From: Sneathia sanguinegens
Lineage (GTDB): Bacteria; Fusobacteriota; Fusobacteriia; Fusobacteriales; Leptotrichiaceae
NCBI RefSeq assembly: GCF_001517935.1
Contig: NZ_LOQF01000010.1
Span: 1 to 62,735, forward strand
Direction: 5' to 3'
Length of the DNA stretch: 62,735 bases
Below the pieces are notes generated by a model. The model was not told where the DNA came from, ran no database searches, and saw only the letters and a list, made by a program, of their open reading frames with translations. The translations under genes and the position numbers were made by a program. Shown piece after piece: positions 12 to 13,264 of this stretch (position 1 is its first letter; each line of letters begins with the position of its first letter).

Positions 12-53
12 AAAAAAAAAAAAAAAAAACTACATATCTTAATCGATATGTAG
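12..53 (-). terminator. Rho-independent terminator after the DUF4198 gene
   Basis: A perfect 9-bp stem (arms 30-38 and 45-53, 6-nt loop) is followed on the minus strand by an unbroken run of 18 T (plus-strand A at 12-29). It lies 16 bases beyond the stop codon of the gene ending at 69, so it ends that transcript. Confidence 0.9.
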
Positions 54-3040: not shown

Positions 3041-6000
3041 TTATTTTTTGATTAATTTCATAAGTTCTTGAATTTGCTTTTCAAGTATATCAGTTTTTTC
3101 TGCTTTTTTCTTAAGAATATTAATTTCATTTTCTTGCATTTTTAATTTTTCTTCAAGTTCACTAATTTTCTTTCCTTTTTCAGGATATTTATCAGTCTTA
3201 AATTCACCAAGCATTACTCCTAAACCTGCTCCTAATGCTATATTTCCTTTTGTATTTACCGAACCACTTACTCTATATGATACCATTCTATTTTCACTAA
3301 CTCCACTGAAACCTACTGCTAAGGCGTTTGCTCCTCCATAATATCCATATGCTGCTGATATATTAGTCTTGTATTTTGCGTTTGAATTTGCTTGCAATAA
3401 GTTTGCCATAGCTACTGCATTCGCTACTCCTCCTAATGCTAAATCAGATTTCTTATTTGCTCCAACTACAGTATTAGATATATTACTTACCTTTTCATCA
3501 ACTTCAGTTTTATTATAGTAATTTTTTAGATGTTCATTTACTTGTTTATCTGTTACTAATTTATTATTAGGTTTAGATATATCTGAATCTTTAGATAATT
3601 TATTAATTAAGTTAGTTTCTCCCTTTGCTGTTAAATTATCTGCATCTACATTTAACTTCTTAGTCATATCTTGTTTTAGAGTAGTAATATCGTTAGTGTT
3701 TGTGTCTACCTTAGTTGTTAATGAATTAATGTTATTTGTATTACTTTCAACTTTAGTTTTTAAATCTCCAATATTAGTATTAATATCACCTAATTTAGTA
3801 GTAAACATATTGTTTATTGAATTATTATTAGTTAAATCAAGATCATTTTCTAAGTTAGTTTTATTAAATGATAATGTGTAGTTAAATTTATTATCTTTCT
3901 TAACACCAATATATTTATCACCTGTTATTGATAAATCAGCTTTATCTAACTTACCATCTAATTTAGTATTGATATTAGTTATACTATTATCTATATCACC
4001 TAATTTATTCTTAATATTAGTAATATCTTGTGTTGTATTCTTAAGACCATTTACTGTTGTTTGTAAGTTCTTAATATCATTAGTATTTGTTGTAACTTGA
4101 TTATTAAGAGTAGTATATTTATTATCTAATTCTGTAATATTTTGTGTGTTACTAGATATACTCTTATTTAATTCTTTCTTAACTTCATAAACTTTTCCAC
4201 CTGTAACAAGTTTAGTATCACCTTCTTTAACTTCACCAGTTCCTAATCTATTAGTTAAAGTATTTTCACCTTCTTTAGTTAAGTTGTTTGCATCTATATC
4301 TAATTTACCTTTTAATGCTTCACTTACCTTAGTATCTGTAACTAATCTATTAGTTGGTGTAGATAAATTTGATTCATTACTTAATTTTTCTGTTAATTTA
4401 ACTAATGATGCAGTATCTAGATTAGTCCCATCTTTATCTAATTTATTAGATAAATCTAGTGTAGATTTATTAGTTAATTCTTGCTTAATTGTATTAACAT
4501 AATTGTATATATCTCCACCTTTAACTAATCCTGTATTATCTTTAGTTATAGTACCATTACCAAGTTTAGCTTGCCATACATTTAAATCAATATTTTCTAA
4601 ATTAGTTCCATCAAGTAGTGCATATTTATTAAATCGTTCAGTTAATTTAGTGTTCTTAGTTAAATCAAGATCACTAGCTAATTTATCTTTATCAAATACT
4701 AGGCTATAATGATTACGTTTAATTGTACCCTTATTTACTGTGATGTAATCATCACCTGTAACATCTACATCGTCACTACTTAATTTATTACTTACTTTAT
4801 TGTTAATATCGTTTATTTCATCAGTTATATATTTTTTAACTGTCCCCCCTGTAACAAGGTTTGTATTATTATCTGTAATAGTACCTGTTCCGAGTGCATT
4901 AGTTAAAGCAGTTTTACCTGTTTCACTTAAATTATCTGCATCTACATTTAATTTTTTGGTTAAATCTGTGTTAGACTTATTTGATAAATCTTGTTTAATG
5001 TTATTAACAATATTATCAACATAATTGAATACAGTATCACCTTTAACAAGTTTAGTTTCACCTTTGGCAACACTACCATTACCTAATTTAGCTTGCCAAC
5101 TAGTTATATCTGTATCATTTAAATTATTTGCATTTTTATCTGCCTTATCGTCTAATTTAGCTTTTAGATAAGTGTTATTAGTTATATCTGTACTGTTAAC
5201 AAGTTGTTGTAATTTATTTTCATCAAATGCTACTTTATACTTTGTCTTAACATTATCTATATTTGTTACAGTGATATATTTACCATCACCTTTAACATCA
5301 ACATCTTCTGTATTTAACTTTTTATCTAGTTTTGTATTGATAGTACTTGTATTATTTTCTATTTTACTATCTACATATGTTTTAACTACTCCACCTTTAA
5401 CTAATCCAGTGTCACCATCATTCATAGCACCATTACCTAATTTAGCTTGCCAATCCTTAACATCTTTATCTTCTAAATTAGTTGCATCCTTATTAGCTTT
5501 TTTAGCTAACTCTGTATTAATATTAGTTATTGTAGTATTTTTTGATAAATCAAAATTATTTGAGTTTATTAAATTTTGTAAATTATCTTTATTAAATGAT
5601 AATGTATATACCCCTTTAGCACTACCCTTAGTTGCTGTAATATAGTCATCACCTGTAATAGTTATATCAGATAATTTATCATTTAAATCTGTACTTAATT
5701 GGTCAACTCTTGTATTTATTGGTTTTATAGCAGCACTTACAGTTCCTCCTGTAACTAATCCTTTATTATTATCTTCAACTTTACCTGTACCTAATGTTGA
5801 TTGCCACTTAGTTAAATTATCCCCTGTTACATTACCTGCATCTAAATTAGCTTTCTTATCTAACATATCTTGTATTGATTTATTGTTACTAAAGTCAGAC
5901 CCACTAACAGTAGTTTTTAATTGTGTTTCATCAAATGATACTGTATATTTTTTACCTGTACTACTTACATTAATATATTTATTATCTCCAGTAACATCTA

Positions 6001-9000
6001 TATCATCTTTATTTAATTTTTTATCTATATCGTTATTTATATTTTTAATAACTTTATTATTACTAAAGTCATATGAATTTAAATGATTATTTAAGATATC
6101 TTCATTTAAAGCTAATGTATAGTTTGAATTACTTACTTTAGTTGCTTTAATATACTTATCTCCAGTAATAGTTATATCAGATAATTTACTACTTAAGTTT
6201 GTGTTTATTATGTCCAATTTATCTTTTATTTGACTATCCACATATGTTTTAACTACTCCACCTGTTACTAATCCTGTATTACCATCATCTATAGTACCAT
6301 CACCCAATACAGTTTGCCACTTAGTTAAATTGTCACCGTTTACATTACTTGCATCTAAATCTGCTTTTTTATCTAGTTCAGTCTTTAAAGAAGTGTTATT
6401 AGTTATATCTGTATTATTAACAAGTTGCTTTAAAGTATCTTCGTTAAATTTTAATTCATAGTGATTAGGTTTATCTTTTTCACTTGTTACTTCGATATAT
6501 TCATCACCTGTAACTTTTACATCGTCACTATTTAATTTATCTTTTAGTTTATCATCTACATATGTTTTAACTACTCCACCTTTAACTAGGTTATTATTAT
6601 TATCTTCAATTTTACCTATTCCTAATTTGGTAGTTAAAGTAGTTACTCCTTGGTCACTTAAATTATCAGCATTTACATTTAATTTCTTAGCTAAATCTTC
6701 GGTAGATTTATTAGATAATTCTTGTTTAATATTATTAACAAACTTATATACTACTCCACCTGTAACTAGCCCTTTATTATTATCAGCTACAACTCCATTA
6801 CCTAATTTAGATTGCCAAGTATCCAAATTAAATTCGTTATTATTTAAATTTGTTCCATCAAGCAATGCATATTTATCAAATTTTTCATTTAATTTACTAT
6901 TATTAGATAAATTAATTTCTTTACCTATTTTATCTTTATCAAATACTAATGTATAATGATTAGGTTTAGTTACATCCGTATTTACAGTGATATAATCATC
7001 ACCTGTAACTTTTACATCTGCACTACTTAATTTACTATTTAATCTAGTATTAATCTCGTTAATTTCATCAGTTACATATTTTTTTACAACTCCACCTGTA
7101 ACTAGGTTTGTATTACTATCTGCAATAACACCAGTTCCTAATTGTTCAGTTAATTTATTTTTCCCTTTTTCACTTATATTATCTGCATCTACATTTAATT
7201 TTTTAGCTATTTCTGCTTTATTTATATTAATAGAACTTGTATTATTTGTTACTGTACTTTCCAATGTTTTGAACTGTTGCATATTTACTGCATCACTATC
7301 TTCAGTTCCCTTTGCAAGTCCTGTTATTTTTTTAGAATTTAATTTTAAGCTACCTTCATTATCTACTTCAAATTTTACGACTGTATCTATTTTATTTTTA
7401 TTATTAGTTGGATCTTGTATTTTCTTATTAAGACTAATTCCATCTTTAGTAATGCTAACTCTATTCTCTGCCGATTTACCTATTGTTATTTCTTCGAAGA
7501 TTGGCTTACTTTTCATACCTATAAGGATTTGTTTTTTACCATCTTTTATTCTATAGTATGTTGAAAGATTTTCTGTTTCATAATAAGGGTCTGAATCAGT
7601 ATGTGCTTTAGTTTCTTTATTATAATTCCAATGATCTTCTGCTTTTATTTCTATTTCTTCACCTAATTTAACTTTAATATCATTTTTTTCTGCACCTCTT
7701 GTGTCACCAATAAATGTAATTTCTTTATTTCCTAGTTTTGTTAATTCTGATTTATCAGCTTTTTCATCTATTTTATTTATTTTATTTTTTAAATTTTGAT
7801 TTAAACCTAAAGTATACTTAACTCCAACTTTATTTTTAGCATCCATAATATCAGTTAATGTTACTGATATATCGTCACCATTTGAAGAATCTATTTGTTT
7901 AACATAATCTTTTAATTGATCTCCTACTACAACATCTCCAGAGTCTTTTCCTATTCTACCTGGTGCTACCTTTCCAAGTTTTTTCTTATTAAATTCAAAT
8001 GCTTCAGAATTTTTTGAAATTACAAAGTTTCCAACTTCACCAATCTGTACTTTATCAAATTTAGGCTTATTTTTAAATGCAACTATTACTTCATAATCAT
8101 TTCCATTCTTTTCAATGTATGTTCTTACATTGTCTGTTGCATATGTAGTATCATATGTTTTACCTTTATTTTTTCCTTCTGCTCCTTTAAAGATAATTTT
8201 TTTAGGAAATGCAAGTTCAACAGATTTATTTTCAGTACCTTTATCATTTTCTCTATACTCATCTGCTTGTATAGTGAATTTTGTTCTAGCTTCTAATTGC
8301 TTTCCAGTTACTGCATCTGTTGATGAAGTACTAATATCACCATCTGCTAATCCTGTTAACTTCTTATTATTTAAAGTTAAATTATTGTTATTAACACTTA
8401 AATTAACACTAGAATCATTCCCTAATTTAATTTTAGTAAATCTTGGTACATCTTTCATACCTATCACTATTCTTTGAGTATCACCAATTTTTGATACATG
8501 TGTTTGTATATTTTCTACAGTATGTTTATTATCTCCTTGACCCCAAGTTTCCATATCAGTACTATTTTGTTTTTTTGCTGTTGCTCCTTTTATATCTATA
8601 TTTTTAACTAATTCAAATGTTACATTAGAACCAGTATCTCCTGTAAATATGATATTCCCAACTTTTTTTAATTGTTTAACAGTAACTGCATCAGAATCAG
8701 CTGACCCGTCAGCTACACCTGTTATTCTTCTTTTAACATTTGTACCACCTACAGCAAATGTTTTTCCACCACTATTTTGATCTTTAGTTAAATACGCTTC
8801 AGTTGTACTTGAATTTGCTTCTGAACCATCACCTATTGCTACTGAATACTCGTTATTTGCTTTTGCCTCATGTCCTATTGCTACACTTCTTACACCTAAT
8901 GCTTTTGCTCTATCTCCTATTGCAACAGCTTTATTCTTTGATTCTGAATCTCCTCCTATAGCTACTGAAAAAGAATCACCTTTTGCATTCTTACCTATGG

Positions 9001-11089
9001 CTACTGCTTGTTCTTTAGTTGCATCTGCAAAAGCACCTATTGCTATTGCATCTTTTCCAGTTGTTAATTTATTATAGAAATTAGATTTTTCAAAAGATTT
9101 TTTTTCTTCAGTACTTAAAATTGATTTTAAGTTTTCATCTTTAATTAATTCATCTTTCTTTTTATCAATTTCTGTCAAAATTTTTGTTGCAGCTTCACTA
9201 CTCTTATTAATCTCAGCCTCAAAATTTTTAAAACTTTCGTCTTTATTTTTTATATAATTATATTTTGCATCTTTTAAAAGATTTTCTATTTCTTTTTCTA
9301 CTTCACCATTAATAGTTTCATGATTTTTTTCTTTTCTAACTTTCATTTCTAAAAGCTTAGCTTTAAGTTGTATATATTCTTTATAGTTCCCCATTCTAAT
9401 AGCAAGGTCTTGCATTTTTTTACCTTCACCATCAGCTGTTGTTTTATCTACAGACACAAAATTAACCATAGAACTATCATAACCAGATAAATTAACAGCA
9501 CTCAATTTATCTTCAACACTTTTTAATTGTGAAACATTTACAGCATCTGTATCTCTGTAACCTGCTGCAACATTAGTTATTCTACGTTCTTGTCCTATAC
9601 TACCTACTGATATTACACCGACATTTGTTGATGATGGTAATGAAATTGCACCCTTAGGAACATAACCTTTTTTATTAAACCAATCCTGTTGGTAATCAGT
9701 CATAGATTTATTACCTAATGCTAATGAATTTTCTAAATAAGCCTTTGCCCCTATACCTATAGCCATTGAATTATTGGCTTTTGAAATAGATTCAGTACCT
9801 ATTGCCATAGAGTTATCTCCTTTGGCATAAGATATTACACCTAAAGCAAGTGAATTTTTACCTTCTGATAGTGACAAAGACCCTATTGTCATTGAATTAT
9901 TACCAATAGAATATGCATTACTTCCTAATGATATTCCATAATTTCCCATACTTTTTAATTTTTTTATATCTTTATTATTCAATGTAAATTTTGTGTCACC
10001 AGTTTCAATATATTCAGGATTATATTTTTCAATTGAATTTTTTTTATCATCGATACTACTATTTCCAGTAAATATTTTTTGTAAATCAGATATATTTTTT
10101 ATTTCTGCATTAGAAGCAACCTTATTTCCAATAGCTAGTGAACCTATACCTACTGCTTTTGCCCTATACCCATATGACATTGATCCTTCATTTGTTGATT
10201 CATTTTCATTACCTAAAGCTAATGAATGTGCACTAAATACTCTTGCTTTTTCACCAACGGCTAATCCTTGAGCAGCACCTTCATCTACAAATGCATACCT
10301 TCCTATTGCAGTAGATCCATTTGCTAAAGCAAAAGATAAAACTCCCATTGCAATTGATTGATCTGCTGCAGCTACAGATCTTGACCCTATAGCTATTGCT
10401 GAAGTCCCCCCTGCATATGTTGGAGAATATTGTTTAGAATCTATATATGCACTATCAAACTCATTTTGTTTTTTAACACCTTCATTAACTATTCCTTTAT
10501 ATATTCTTCTAATTGTTTCTTCTGGTAAATGATCTGTTCCTCCAATATCATCATTCCCTATTGCAATTGATGATTTTCCTAAAGCATAAATATCACTTCC
10601 GATTGCAACCGCTTGACCAGATGCAGCTGTTTTTGATCCAATCGAAACCCCTTGATCTCCTTTTATTTTAGATTGCAACCCTATACTTACTGATTCTCTA
10701 AAAGCTGTAGTAGCTTCATGTCCTATTGCTATTGCTTCCTCAGCAGCAGCTTCAGCACTATAACCTACTGCTACTGAAGACCCACCACTTGCTTTTGCTA
10801 AATAACCTACTGCTACTGAACCTTCAGCCACATCATTTATGCCTACAGTATTACCACTTTCTGAATTGGGATTTAATGCTACTGTTTTATTTTTTTGACT
10901 AGGTATTGCTTGAGCAGACGGTTTAGTTGATGCTGATATTTTACCCTTATCAATCATTATTACATTTCCATTAACAATACTATTACTCATCATAAATAAC
11001 ACTATCAAACTTGTCGTTATCTTTACTTTCTTTTTTAGGCTTCTTTTTAAATATCTTTTCATTTCTTCAACATTTATTACATTCTTCAT
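3041..11089 (-). CDS. Giant YadA-like trimeric autotransporter adhesin
   Basis: This 2682-residue surface protein should trimerise and display a fibre for adhesion (type Vc secretion). In order: an extended signal region (1 to about 42, basic stretch then hydrophobic core); a first head of YadA-type repeats (xxVAIGxxA pattern, about 80-490); a neck (RRITNVAAGYRDTDAV, about 502-525); a long charged helical insert (about 545-665); a second short head (about 677-770) with a neck near 785; three further neck-like motifs and FTGD/FIGD beta modules; a stalk of related modules (about 1300-2400) with ten LVTGG/LVKGG-like and eight TGDxYI-like motifs; coiled coil; the YadA anchor barrel (about 2545-2630, SDLALGGVANAVAMANLL); and a C-terminal coiled coil (about 2640-2682) beyond the barrel. 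The start overlaps the previous stop as ATGA. No frameshift or stop interrupts the frame. Confidence 0.95.
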   Translation of the reverse strand: MKNVINVEEMKRYLKRSLKKKVKITTSLIVLFMMSNSIVNGNVIMIDKGKISASTKPSAQAIPSQKNKTVALNPNSESGNTVGINDVAEGSVAVGYLAKASGGSSVAVGYSAEAAAEEAIAIGHEATTAFRESVSIGLQSKIKGDQGVSIGSKTAASGQAVAIGSDIYALGKSSIAIGNDDIGGTDHLPEETIRRIYKGIVNEGVKKQNEFDSAYIDSKQYSPTYAGGTSAIAIGSRSVAAADQSIAMGVLSFALANGSTAIGRYAFVDEGAAQGLAVGEKARVFSAHSLALGNENESTNEGSMSYGYRAKAVGIGSLAIGNKVASNAEIKNISDLQKIFTGNSSIDDKKNSIEKYNPEYIETGDTKFTLNNKDIKKLKSMGNYGISLGSNAYSIGNNSMTIGSLSLSEGKNSLALGVISYAKGDNSMAIGTESISKANNSMAIGIGAKAYLENSLALGNKSMTDYQQDWFNKKGYVPKGAISLPSSTNVGVISVGSIGQERRITNVAAGYRDTDAVNVSQLKSVEDKLSAVNLSGYDSSMVNFVSVDKTTADGEGKKMQDLAIRMGNYKEYIQLKAKLLEMKVRKEKNHETINGEVEKEIENLLKDAKYNYIKNKDESFKNFEAEINKSSEAATKILTEIDKKKDELIKDENLKSILSTEEKKSFEKSNFYNKLTTGKDAIAIGAFADATKEQAVAIGKNAKGDSFSVAIGGDSESKNKAVAIGDRAKALGVRSVAIGHEAKANNEYSVAIGDGSEANSSTTEAYLTKDQNSGGKTFAVGGTNVKRRITGVADGSADSDAVTVKQLKKVGNIIFTGDTGSNVTFELVKNIDIKGATAKKQNSTDMETWGQGDNKHTVENIQTHVSKIGDTQRIVIGMKDVPRFTKIKLGNDSSVNLSVNNNNLTLNNKKLTGLADGDISTSSTDAVTGKQLEARTKFTIQADEYRENDKGTENKSVELAFPKKIIFKGAEGKNKGKTYDTTYATDNVRTYIEKNGNDYEVIVAFKNKPKFDKVQIGEVGNFVISKNSEAFEFNKKKLGKVAPGRIGKDSGDVVVGDQLKDYVKQIDSSNGDDISVTLTDIMDAKNKVGVKYTLGLNQNLKNKINKIDEKADKSELTKLGNKEITFIGDTRGAEKNDIKVKLGEEIEIKAEDHWNYNKETKAHTDSDPYYETENLSTYYRIKDGKKQILIGMKSKPIFEEITIGKSAENRVSITKDGISLNKKIQDPTNNKNKIDTVVKFEVDNEGSLKLNSKKITGLAKGTEDSDAVNMQQFKTLESTVTNNTSSININKAEIAKKLNVDADNISEKGKNKLTEQLGTGVIADSNTNLVTGGVVKKYVTDEINEINTRLNSKLSSADVKVTGDDYITVNTDVTKPNHYTLVFDKDKIGKEINLSNNSKLNEKFDKYALLDGTNLNNNEFNLDTWQSKLGNGVVADNNKGLVTGGVVYKFVNNIKQELSNKSTEDLAKKLNVNADNLSDQGVTTLTTKLGIGKIEDNNNNLVKGGVVKTYVDDKLKDKLNSDDVKVTGDEYIEVTSEKDKPNHYELKFNEDTLKQLVNNTDITNNTSLKTELDKKADLDASNVNGDNLTKWQTVLGDGTIDDGNTGLVTGGVVKTYVDSQIKDKLDIINTNLSSKLSDITITGDKYIKATKVSNSNYTLALNEDILNNHLNSYDFSNNKVIKNINNDIDKKLNKDDIDVTGDNKYINVSSTGKKYTVSFDETQLKTTVSGSDFSNNKSIQDMLDKKANLDAGNVTGDNLTKWQSTLGTGKVEDNNKGLVTGGTVSAAIKPINTRVDQLSTDLNDKLSDITITGDDYITATKGSAKGVYTLSFNKDNLQNLINSNNFDLSKNTTITNINTELAKKANKDATNLEDKDVKDWQAKLGNGAMNDGDTGLVKGGVVKTYVDSKIENNTSTINTKLDKKLNTEDVDVKGDGKYITVTNIDNVKTKYKVAFDENKLQQLVNSTDITNNTYLKAKLDDKADKNANNLNDTDITSWQAKLGNGSVAKGETKLVKGDTVFNYVDNIVNNIKQDLSNKSNTDLTKKLNVDADNLSETGKTALTNALGTGTITDNNTNLVTGGTVKKYITDEINDINNKVSNKLSSDDVDVTGDDYITVNKGTIKRNHYSLVFDKDKLASDLDLTKNTKLTERFNKYALLDGTNLENIDLNVWQAKLGNGTITKDNTGLVKGGDIYNYVNTIKQELTNKSTLDLSNKLDKDGTNLDTASLVKLTEKLSNESNLSTPTNRLVTDTKVSEALKGKLDIDANNLTKEGENTLTNRLGTGEVKEGDTKLVTGGKVYEVKKELNKSISSNTQNITELDNKYTTLNNQVTTNTNDIKNLQTTVNGLKNTTQDITNIKNKLGDIDNSITNINTKLDGKLDKADLSITGDKYIGVKKDNKFNYTLSFNKTNLENDLDLTNNNSINNMFTTKLGDINTNIGDLKTKVESNTNNINSLTTKVDTNTNDITTLKQDMTKKLNVDADNLTAKGETNLINKLSKDSDISKPNNKLVTDKQVNEHLKNYYNKTEVDEKVSNISNTVVGANKKSDLALGGVANAVAMANLLQANSNAKYKTNISAAYGYYGGANALAVGFSGVSENRMVSYRVSGSVNTKGNIALGAGLGVMLGEFKTDKYPEKGKKISELEEKLKMQENEINILKKKAEKTDILEKQIQELMKLIKK

Positions 11090-11661
11090 TTATTAATCAC
11101 TCCTAAATAGTCATACTTTGTTATTTTCTTATATTGTCTATAAAACTTATATTTAAAATAGTCCTGAAAATATAGTGAATTGTCTTCAGTGTCTGTTATA
11201 AATCTATCTGTTTCTTCATCATCTAATGATAGTGTTATAATTTTTATATTTTTCGCGAATTTATCCTCTTTTAATTCTTTTATGCTTCTATTTATTAATT
11301 TATCATTCTTTTCTTTTAGTAAAAATATTAATATTTCCTTACCAAGCTTACTTAATTTATCCTTATTTTTTTCTAATATACTTACATCTGGTAAAATTAC
11401 CAAAAACTCATCAGATACCTCTTTATTTATTTTTGATTCTGCTAAAAAATAGTCTGCAAATTTAAAATCTACTGCTTGTAAGTCTGTATGTTTAATACTT
11501 TCTATTTCCTTTGTATATTCTACAAATTTATCCAAATTATTTGCTAAAGTAATATTAGTCATTAGAACTAATAATGAAATTAAAAGCTTTTTAGTAGTAA
11601 AAATATTAAAATTTCGTTTAATTTTATATAATAGTTGTGATAATATTACTATATTTTCCAT
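11086..11661 (-). CDS. Small secreted protein coupled to the adhesin gene, function unknown
   Basis: The 191-residue product (start MENIVILSQLLYK) has a basic N-terminus and a hydrophobic export segment (KKLLISLLVLMTNITLA), so it is predicted to be periplasmic; no lipobox is seen. The remainder is a charged alpha/beta protein I do not recognise. Two in-frame ATGs upstream (11712, 11688) exist, but 11661 has AGGAGG six bases away, and the upstream ones fall at or near the predicted transcription start. The stop overlaps the adhesin start (ATGA), so translation is probably coupled. By analogy with small periplasmic partners of other trimeric autotransporters (SadB, TpgA) it might assist adhesin export, but no homology to those is visible. 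Confidence 0.65.
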   Translation of the reverse strand: MENIVILSQLLYKIKRNFNIFTTKKLLISLLVLMTNITLANNLDKFVEYTKEIESIKHTDLQAVDFKFADYFLAESKINKEVSDEFLVILPDVSILEKNKDKLSKLGKEILIFLLKEKNDKLINRSIKELKEDKFAKNIKIITLSLDDEETDRFITDTEDNSLYFQDYFKYKFYRQYKKITKYDYLGVINK

Positions 11662-11714
11662 TTTTTTCCTCCTTATTTTAATTTTTTTCATGTTTCCTAA
11701 AAAAACACACATCT

Positions 11715-11743
11715 TTTATAGTAACACCCCCCCCCCGCATAAA
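11715..11743 (-). promoter_or_regulatory. Candidate phase-variable promoter of the adhesin operon
   Basis: The minus strand reads TTTATG (-35-like, 11738-11743), then exactly 17 bp that contain the ten-G run, then TATAAA (-10, 11715-11720). A better -35 match, TTGATT (11743-11748), would give a 22-bp spacer at this tract length. Predicted transcription starts near 11707, leaving a leader of about 46 nt before the AGGAGG/ATG at 11661. Loss or gain of G residues would change the spacer. Confidence 0.6.
11727..11736. repeat. Homopolymeric C10/G10 tract
   Basis: Ten consecutive C on the plus strand (G on the coding strand of the adhesin operon). It is conspicuous in such AT-rich sequence, the only run of this kind I saw, and sits within the candidate promoter of a surface adhesin. 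Confidence 0.95.
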
Positions 11744-11863
11744 ATCAACTTTATTTTACACATATATTTACCTATTATTTAACTCAATAAAAAAAGTATA
11801 AATACCTATTGATTTATACTTGTTTTCTTTTATGTTTCTTTTTTAACCCAAAAGTTTATTATA

Positions 11864-11896
11864 CAAAAAAAGAGACTACCATCTCTAGTAATCTCT
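11864..11896 (-). terminator. Rho-independent terminator after enolase
   Basis: A 10-bp stem with two G-U pairs (arms 11871-11880 and 11887-11896, 6-nt loop) is followed on the minus strand by seven T. It lies 10 bases past the enolase stop. Confidence 0.9.
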
Positions 11897-11905
11897 AATT
11901 TTCTA

Positions 11906-13264
<1,359 letters not shown>

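Follow-up and report, generated by a model that had tools for sequence, protein, structure and literature searches.

Gene content of the locus

The window, by which we mean the whole analysed stretch of 62,735 nucleotides, carries an operon of two genes on its minus strand, with a terminator upstream of it:

11086-11712, minus strand: gene of a small secreted-looking protein, first of the operon (208 amino acids as listed, 191 from the start at 11661)
11659-11675, minus strand: approximate Shine-Dalgarno sequence and likely true start ATG of the small gene, assigned from the sequence
3041-11089, minus strand: gene of a 2682-residue trimeric autotransporter adhesin (TAA), second of the operon, with Pfam YadA head, stalk and anchor
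11871-11896, minus strand: intrinsic terminator after the enolase gene (one found versus none in shuffles)

The two genes overlap by four nucleotides (ATGA), and the second encodes everything that defines a TAA, namely YadA head repeats, a coiled stalk and a C-terminal YadA anchor (YadA_head 7e-33, YadA_stalk 5e-33, YadA_anchor 4e-5, all above the curated cut-offs). The preliminary description had placed a G tract directly in front of a small gene coupled to this adhesin gene, which is indeed the arrangement found. The small gene contains three in-frame ATGs, of which the one at 11659-11661 is preceded by AAGGAGG. The start at 11661 is likely better than the listed start at 11712, because the latter falls approximately at the expected transcription start while the former has a good Shine-Dalgarno sequence. 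The enolase gene, named from its sequence, is located upstream of the operon at 11906-13216, and the predicted terminator behind it isolates the operon from upstream transcription.

The product of the small gene has no match in Pfam or NCBIfam, no relatives were found in the genome-contig collection, and its structure prediction (pLDDT 51) was too poor for a structure search. Sequence matches in the PDB to Toll-like receptor 3 (E-values of 0.006 and above) were judged to be chance similarities of leucine-rich sequence. A paralog of the small gene is present on another contig of the same genome, G000 (C18, L089, 121-795), where a TAA gene follows directly (788 onward) and no poly-G tract is found. 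Judging from its gene neighbourhood, the small gene apparently recurs as a partner of TAAs.

The G tract and the predicted promoter

The region upstream of the operon contains the following elements:

11727-11736, minus strand: tract of ten consecutive G (G10), putative slippage site in the promoter spacer
11743-11748, minus strand: -35 hexamer TTGATT (revised assignment, from the MAFFT alignment with the ortholog in G001 and from TTGAnn at equal offset in other promoters)
11724-11726, minus strand: TGT of an extended -10 element (TGn), between tract and -10, kept in the ortholog
11718-11723, minus strand: -10 hexamer TACTAT (revised assignment), separated from TTGATT by 19 bp and aligned with TAAAAT of the ortholog
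11779-11783, minus strand: GTTAA box, some 35 bp before the -35 hexamer, common to nine other Sneathia poly-G promoters and to poly-T promoters

The window has a GC content of 28%, and every run of G or C apart from the G10 tract comprises at most six residues. The three overlapping G8 matches in the tract compare with a mean of 0.07 in 100 dinucleotide shuffles, none of which reached three. The ten G had been reported correctly, as had the uniqueness of the run within the window, but the tract is not unique in the genome, which holds five tracts of at least nine G. An A18 run at the start of the window (12-29) was considered as a second switch and dismissed; read on the minus strand, it comes after a hairpin, as in a terminator.

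The operon has been kept in the sister species G001, which we take to be S. vaginalis (amnii). There the small gene is 70% identical over 168 residues and again overlaps the TAA gene by four bases. The intergenic DNA of G001 has diverged in the MAFFT alignment save for TGTAAAATAAAGTTGATTTT, the G tract, which is a G9 there, and TGTTA. The TTGATT hexamer sits within a 20-nt block that is identical in the two species. A match of the conserved 20-mer to a viral contig was taken as chance, there being no tract beside it. The extended -10 element reads TGT-TACTAT in the window and TGT-TAAAAT in G001, the spacer being 19 bp in the former and 18 bp in the latter. With TTGATT, tract and TGTTA all retained in G001, we favour TTGATT-19 bp-TACTAT as the predicted promoter, which is likely one or two G above its optimum. 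TACTAT is a weak -10 hexamer (four of six positions match), and the true -10 is ambiguous; the overlapping TATAAA (11715-11720) matches at five. The counterpart of the giant adhesin gene in G001 (L181, C1:824699-833030) stops after 2017 amino acids and is followed by an overlapping frame of 768 amino acids; it is possibly frameshifted, through biology or through sequencing error.

Poly-G promoters in the Leptotrichiaceae

The five tracts of at least nine G in the 1.29-Mb genome compare with about 0.2 expected per genome from base composition, and all five are located before secreted or TAA-type genes, one of which is now a truncated remnant. At locus L087 (G000:C19:1170-1178) the poly-G promoter precedes a truncated gene of 46 codons, whose counterpart in G001 (L079) encodes 268 amino acids. 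In G000 and G001, tracts of this length occupy the coding strand and in most cases are 25-75 nt upstream of the gene start, with TAnnnT 0-3 nt after the tract and TTGnnn or a close variant 6-9 nt before it. An exception is L070 (G001:C1:576604-576612), where a G9 tract lies within an open frame of 690 codons and phase variation might possibly be translational, through frameshifts, instead of being exerted at a promoter. At L085 (G000:C15:8900-8907) a G8 tract is found a few bases ahead of an ATG, at the place expected of a ribosome-binding site.

The design TTGAnn-(6-9 nt)-G8-14-TAnnnT recurs in the sister species and in further Leptotrichiaceae, above all Streptobacillus. Twelve Leptotrichiaceae genomes contributed 137 tracts of at least eight G. 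At 97 of these, both hexamers are in register with at least five of six positions matching, compared with a mean of 2.4 and a maximum of 10 for shuffled flanks. The 3' end of the tract adjoins the -10 hexamer in 81 of 94 strict cases, in which spacer lengths span 15-22 bp, most often 18-19, and are thus not fixed at 17. The pattern TTGAMA-N5-10-G8-TATAMT has 35 matches, found in seven of 98 Fusobacteriota genomes, and the reversed pattern has none. YadA_head and YadA_stalk domains (E≤0.01) were detected in 32 and 24, respectively, of the 109 proteins downstream of tracts, and these counts are minima because many proteins are incomplete at the ends of the loci. Many of the other downstream proteins start, as judged by eye, with signal-peptide-like sequences, and a few are products of metabolic genes. 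Judged by its architecture, the tract in the window is one of a family-wide set of similar predicted promoters in front of surface proteins.

The GTTAA box and poly-T promoters

The GTTAA box begins 34-36 bp before the -35 hexamer in ten of 17 Sneathia poly-G promoters, including that of the window, and in shuffles no 5-mer was common to more than five promoters at one place. Leaving out near-duplicates, the box is present in seven of 14 promoters versus at most five in shuffles. A second class of tract has the same box in front of it:

Poly-T class: G001 loci L337, L339, L341, L343, L345, L351, L353, L357, L358, L359, L361 and L363; G000 contig C17 (L350)

In G001, 12 of the 19 tracts of at least 13 T have GTTAA 31-36 nt before them (35 nt in most cases) and TAAAAT or TACAAT 3-5 nt after them. 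These boxed tracts (T13-T20) start where a -35 would be expected and precede adhesins and paralogs that resemble outer-membrane proteins. Among paralogous poly-T promoters whose flanks are very similar, tract length varies from T13 to T19. As a tentative proposal, which we regard as somewhat less than an even chance, Sneathia might have a dedicated phase-variable surface regulon, in which the GTTAA box stands at a fixed distance of about 35 bp before the -35 of a promoter with a poly-G spacer or before a poly-T tract replacing the -35. The choice among dozens of adhesins and outer-membrane proteins in each cell would then fall jointly to a putative regulator common to these promoters and to the random length of the tracts.

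Tract-length differences and the proposed mechanism

Of nine locus pairs whose flanks are similar (at most 20 differences in 100 nt), seven differ in tract length, these being differences between related loci or species with one genome per species. Examples are G9/G11 with four flank differences and G11/G10 with five. Two of the seven differing pairs involve non-promoter tracts, and one of these two consists of two tracts of a single locus. Draft assemblies can misstate the length of homopolymers, and Newbler (454-type) reads underlie the reference assembly of S. amnii (PMC3535699). The spread of the spacers over 15-22 bp would fit populations caught in different states.

We consider it likely that the window contains a slippage-prone (contingency) tract in the spacer of the operon's only evident promoter and that the operon is subject to promoter-spacing phase variation. 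We favour this reading because the architecture is recurrent, the ortholog has kept the -35 and the tract, and tract lengths differ between relatives with similar flanks. Recurrence in the family and conservation in the ortholog also support the earlier view that the tract belongs to the promoter spacer of an operon for a surface adhesin. Replication slippage would add or remove G in the tract, and every G would shift the distance between -35 and -10, now 19 bp, and hence the binding of RNA polymerase. Transcription would be graded: highest near G8, where the spacer is 17 bp, of intermediate strength at G9, and weak from G10 upwards. Since G10 results in 19 bp with the conserved elements, an ON length of about G8-G9 is expected. 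A single tract would set both genes of the operon, and the family-wide promoter set together would lead to combinatorial variation of the cell surface, whose proteins are probably switched up or down through random changes in the length of G runs.

The preliminary description had instead built the promoter from TTTATG (11738-11743) and TATAAA (11715-11720), so that G10 would be the ON state with the ideal spacing of 17 bp, and had regarded TTGATT as a competing -35 needing about five fewer G. The string is present at this spacing and TATAAA is the closer match to a -10 hexamer, but neither hexamer is kept in that arrangement in G001, and in the other promoters of the family the tract is preceded, at about 6-9 nt, by TTGAnn. 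TTGATT is the conserved element and with TACTAT would need only two fewer G. That G10 marks the ON state of a TTTATG promoter therefore has a very slight probability. It could also be imagined that the tract does not switch at all, being either a stable spacer with which the promoter simply stays weak or the product of an accidental mutation. The genes for MutS and MutL are present and would limit slippage, and their presence also dismisses the idea that a mismatch-repair defect drives tract variation. However, a stable or accidental tract is hard to reconcile with the positional specificity over about 95 promoters, the preference for surface genes, the length differences between close relatives, and the rarity of such G runs by chance at 28% GC, and is very unlikely.

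In another scenario, the tract would alter the distance between a putative GTTAA-bound regulator and the core promoter, and the effect of a length change would depend on the regulator, as in Neisseria nadA or opc. The position of the box in the ten Sneathia poly-G promoters is consistent with this, as is its presence before poly-T tracts that have no recognisable -35, and the distance from GTTAA to the -10 is alike in both classes. Against it, the box is missing at that place in the other seven of the 17 Sneathia poly-G promoters, and it is not enriched there in Streptobacillus, whose near-consensus -35 and -10 hexamers need no activator. We regard a regulator-dependent effect as rather unlikely and prefer promoter spacing as the mechanism.

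Comparison with known systems and wider occurrence

Sneathia is fastidious and has been connected with bacterial vaginosis and with preterm birth; Streptobacillus is associated with rat-bite fever. The product of uspA1 in Moraxella catarrhalis is a trimeric autotransporter. The length of the upstream G tract of this adhesin gene grades its mRNA and changes it up to 21-fold, with low mRNA at G8-10 and high mRNA at G11-12 in strain 195ME (PMC7302503). This resembles the present operon, but uspA1 is a single locus and its tract is described only as lying upstream of the ORF (PMC7302503). In porA of Neisseria meningitidis, a poly-G tract between -35 and -10 sets the spacing by its length and a surface protein is encoded downstream (PMC7864442). 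The window is alike in having the tract between the predicted hexamers and a YadA-type adhesin downstream. The differences are the other phylum, the many promoters per genome, mostly of adhesins, and the spacer, which is apparently 19 instead of 17 bp. Neisseria nadA is also a phase-variable adhesin gene under a promoter repeat (PMC2791445). However, the nadA repeat is upstream of the core promoter, where it alters the spacing of distal elements and repressor sites, whereas the tract here lies inside the core spacer. The poly-C tract of Neisseria opc covers the -35 (PMC7864442) and resembles the poly-T class of Sneathia, not the promoter in the window. In Treponema pallidum, the outer-membrane gene tprL has a promoter-associated poly-G tract as well, but this overlaps the -10, and a porA-like spacing mechanism is therefore excluded (PMC7864442).

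A literature search, with subscription papers outside its scope, retrieved no paper that connects phase variation with Streptobacillus moniliformis and none that connects homopolymeric tracts with Streptobacillus. Two Sneathia genome papers (PMC3535699 and PMC13393775, the latter a comparison of 12 genomes) list adhesins and say nothing of phase variation, homopolymers, or promoters. Thus, this is a lineage for which we found no published report of such promoters. The window has a real, probably phase-variable promoter of a mechanistic kind that is already known, but the lineage is new and such promoters are unusually numerous in it. Taken over the whole genome, the poly-G and poly-T promoters would predict which surface proteins vary, and would explain how a bacterium with a 1.3-Mb genome could vary its surface.

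The pattern TTGACA-N5-9-G9-TATAAT was found in at least 120 stretches of a collection of 84,980 species, while less than one would be expected by chance (an estimate for uniform composition). The matches listed are mostly from gut Clostridia and Bacilli, and in addition from Treponema, Helicobacter, Saccharibacteria, and Streptobacillus. Among these listed matches, a gene starts within 250 nt downstream at 110 of 124 sites, versus 50 in the other direction, and the commonest downstream domains are BspA-type LRR and InlB-like repeats, which are surface types, as well as ABC transporters. Since the architecture is found in Streptobacillus and also, among others, in Treponema and many gut Firmicutes, poly-G switching in promoter spacers seems to be far commoner than the few textbook cases. 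The spacers among the matches listed (L216-L335) are bimodal, with lengths of 15-16 and 18 bp and few at 17, within the 14-18 bp that the pattern allowed.
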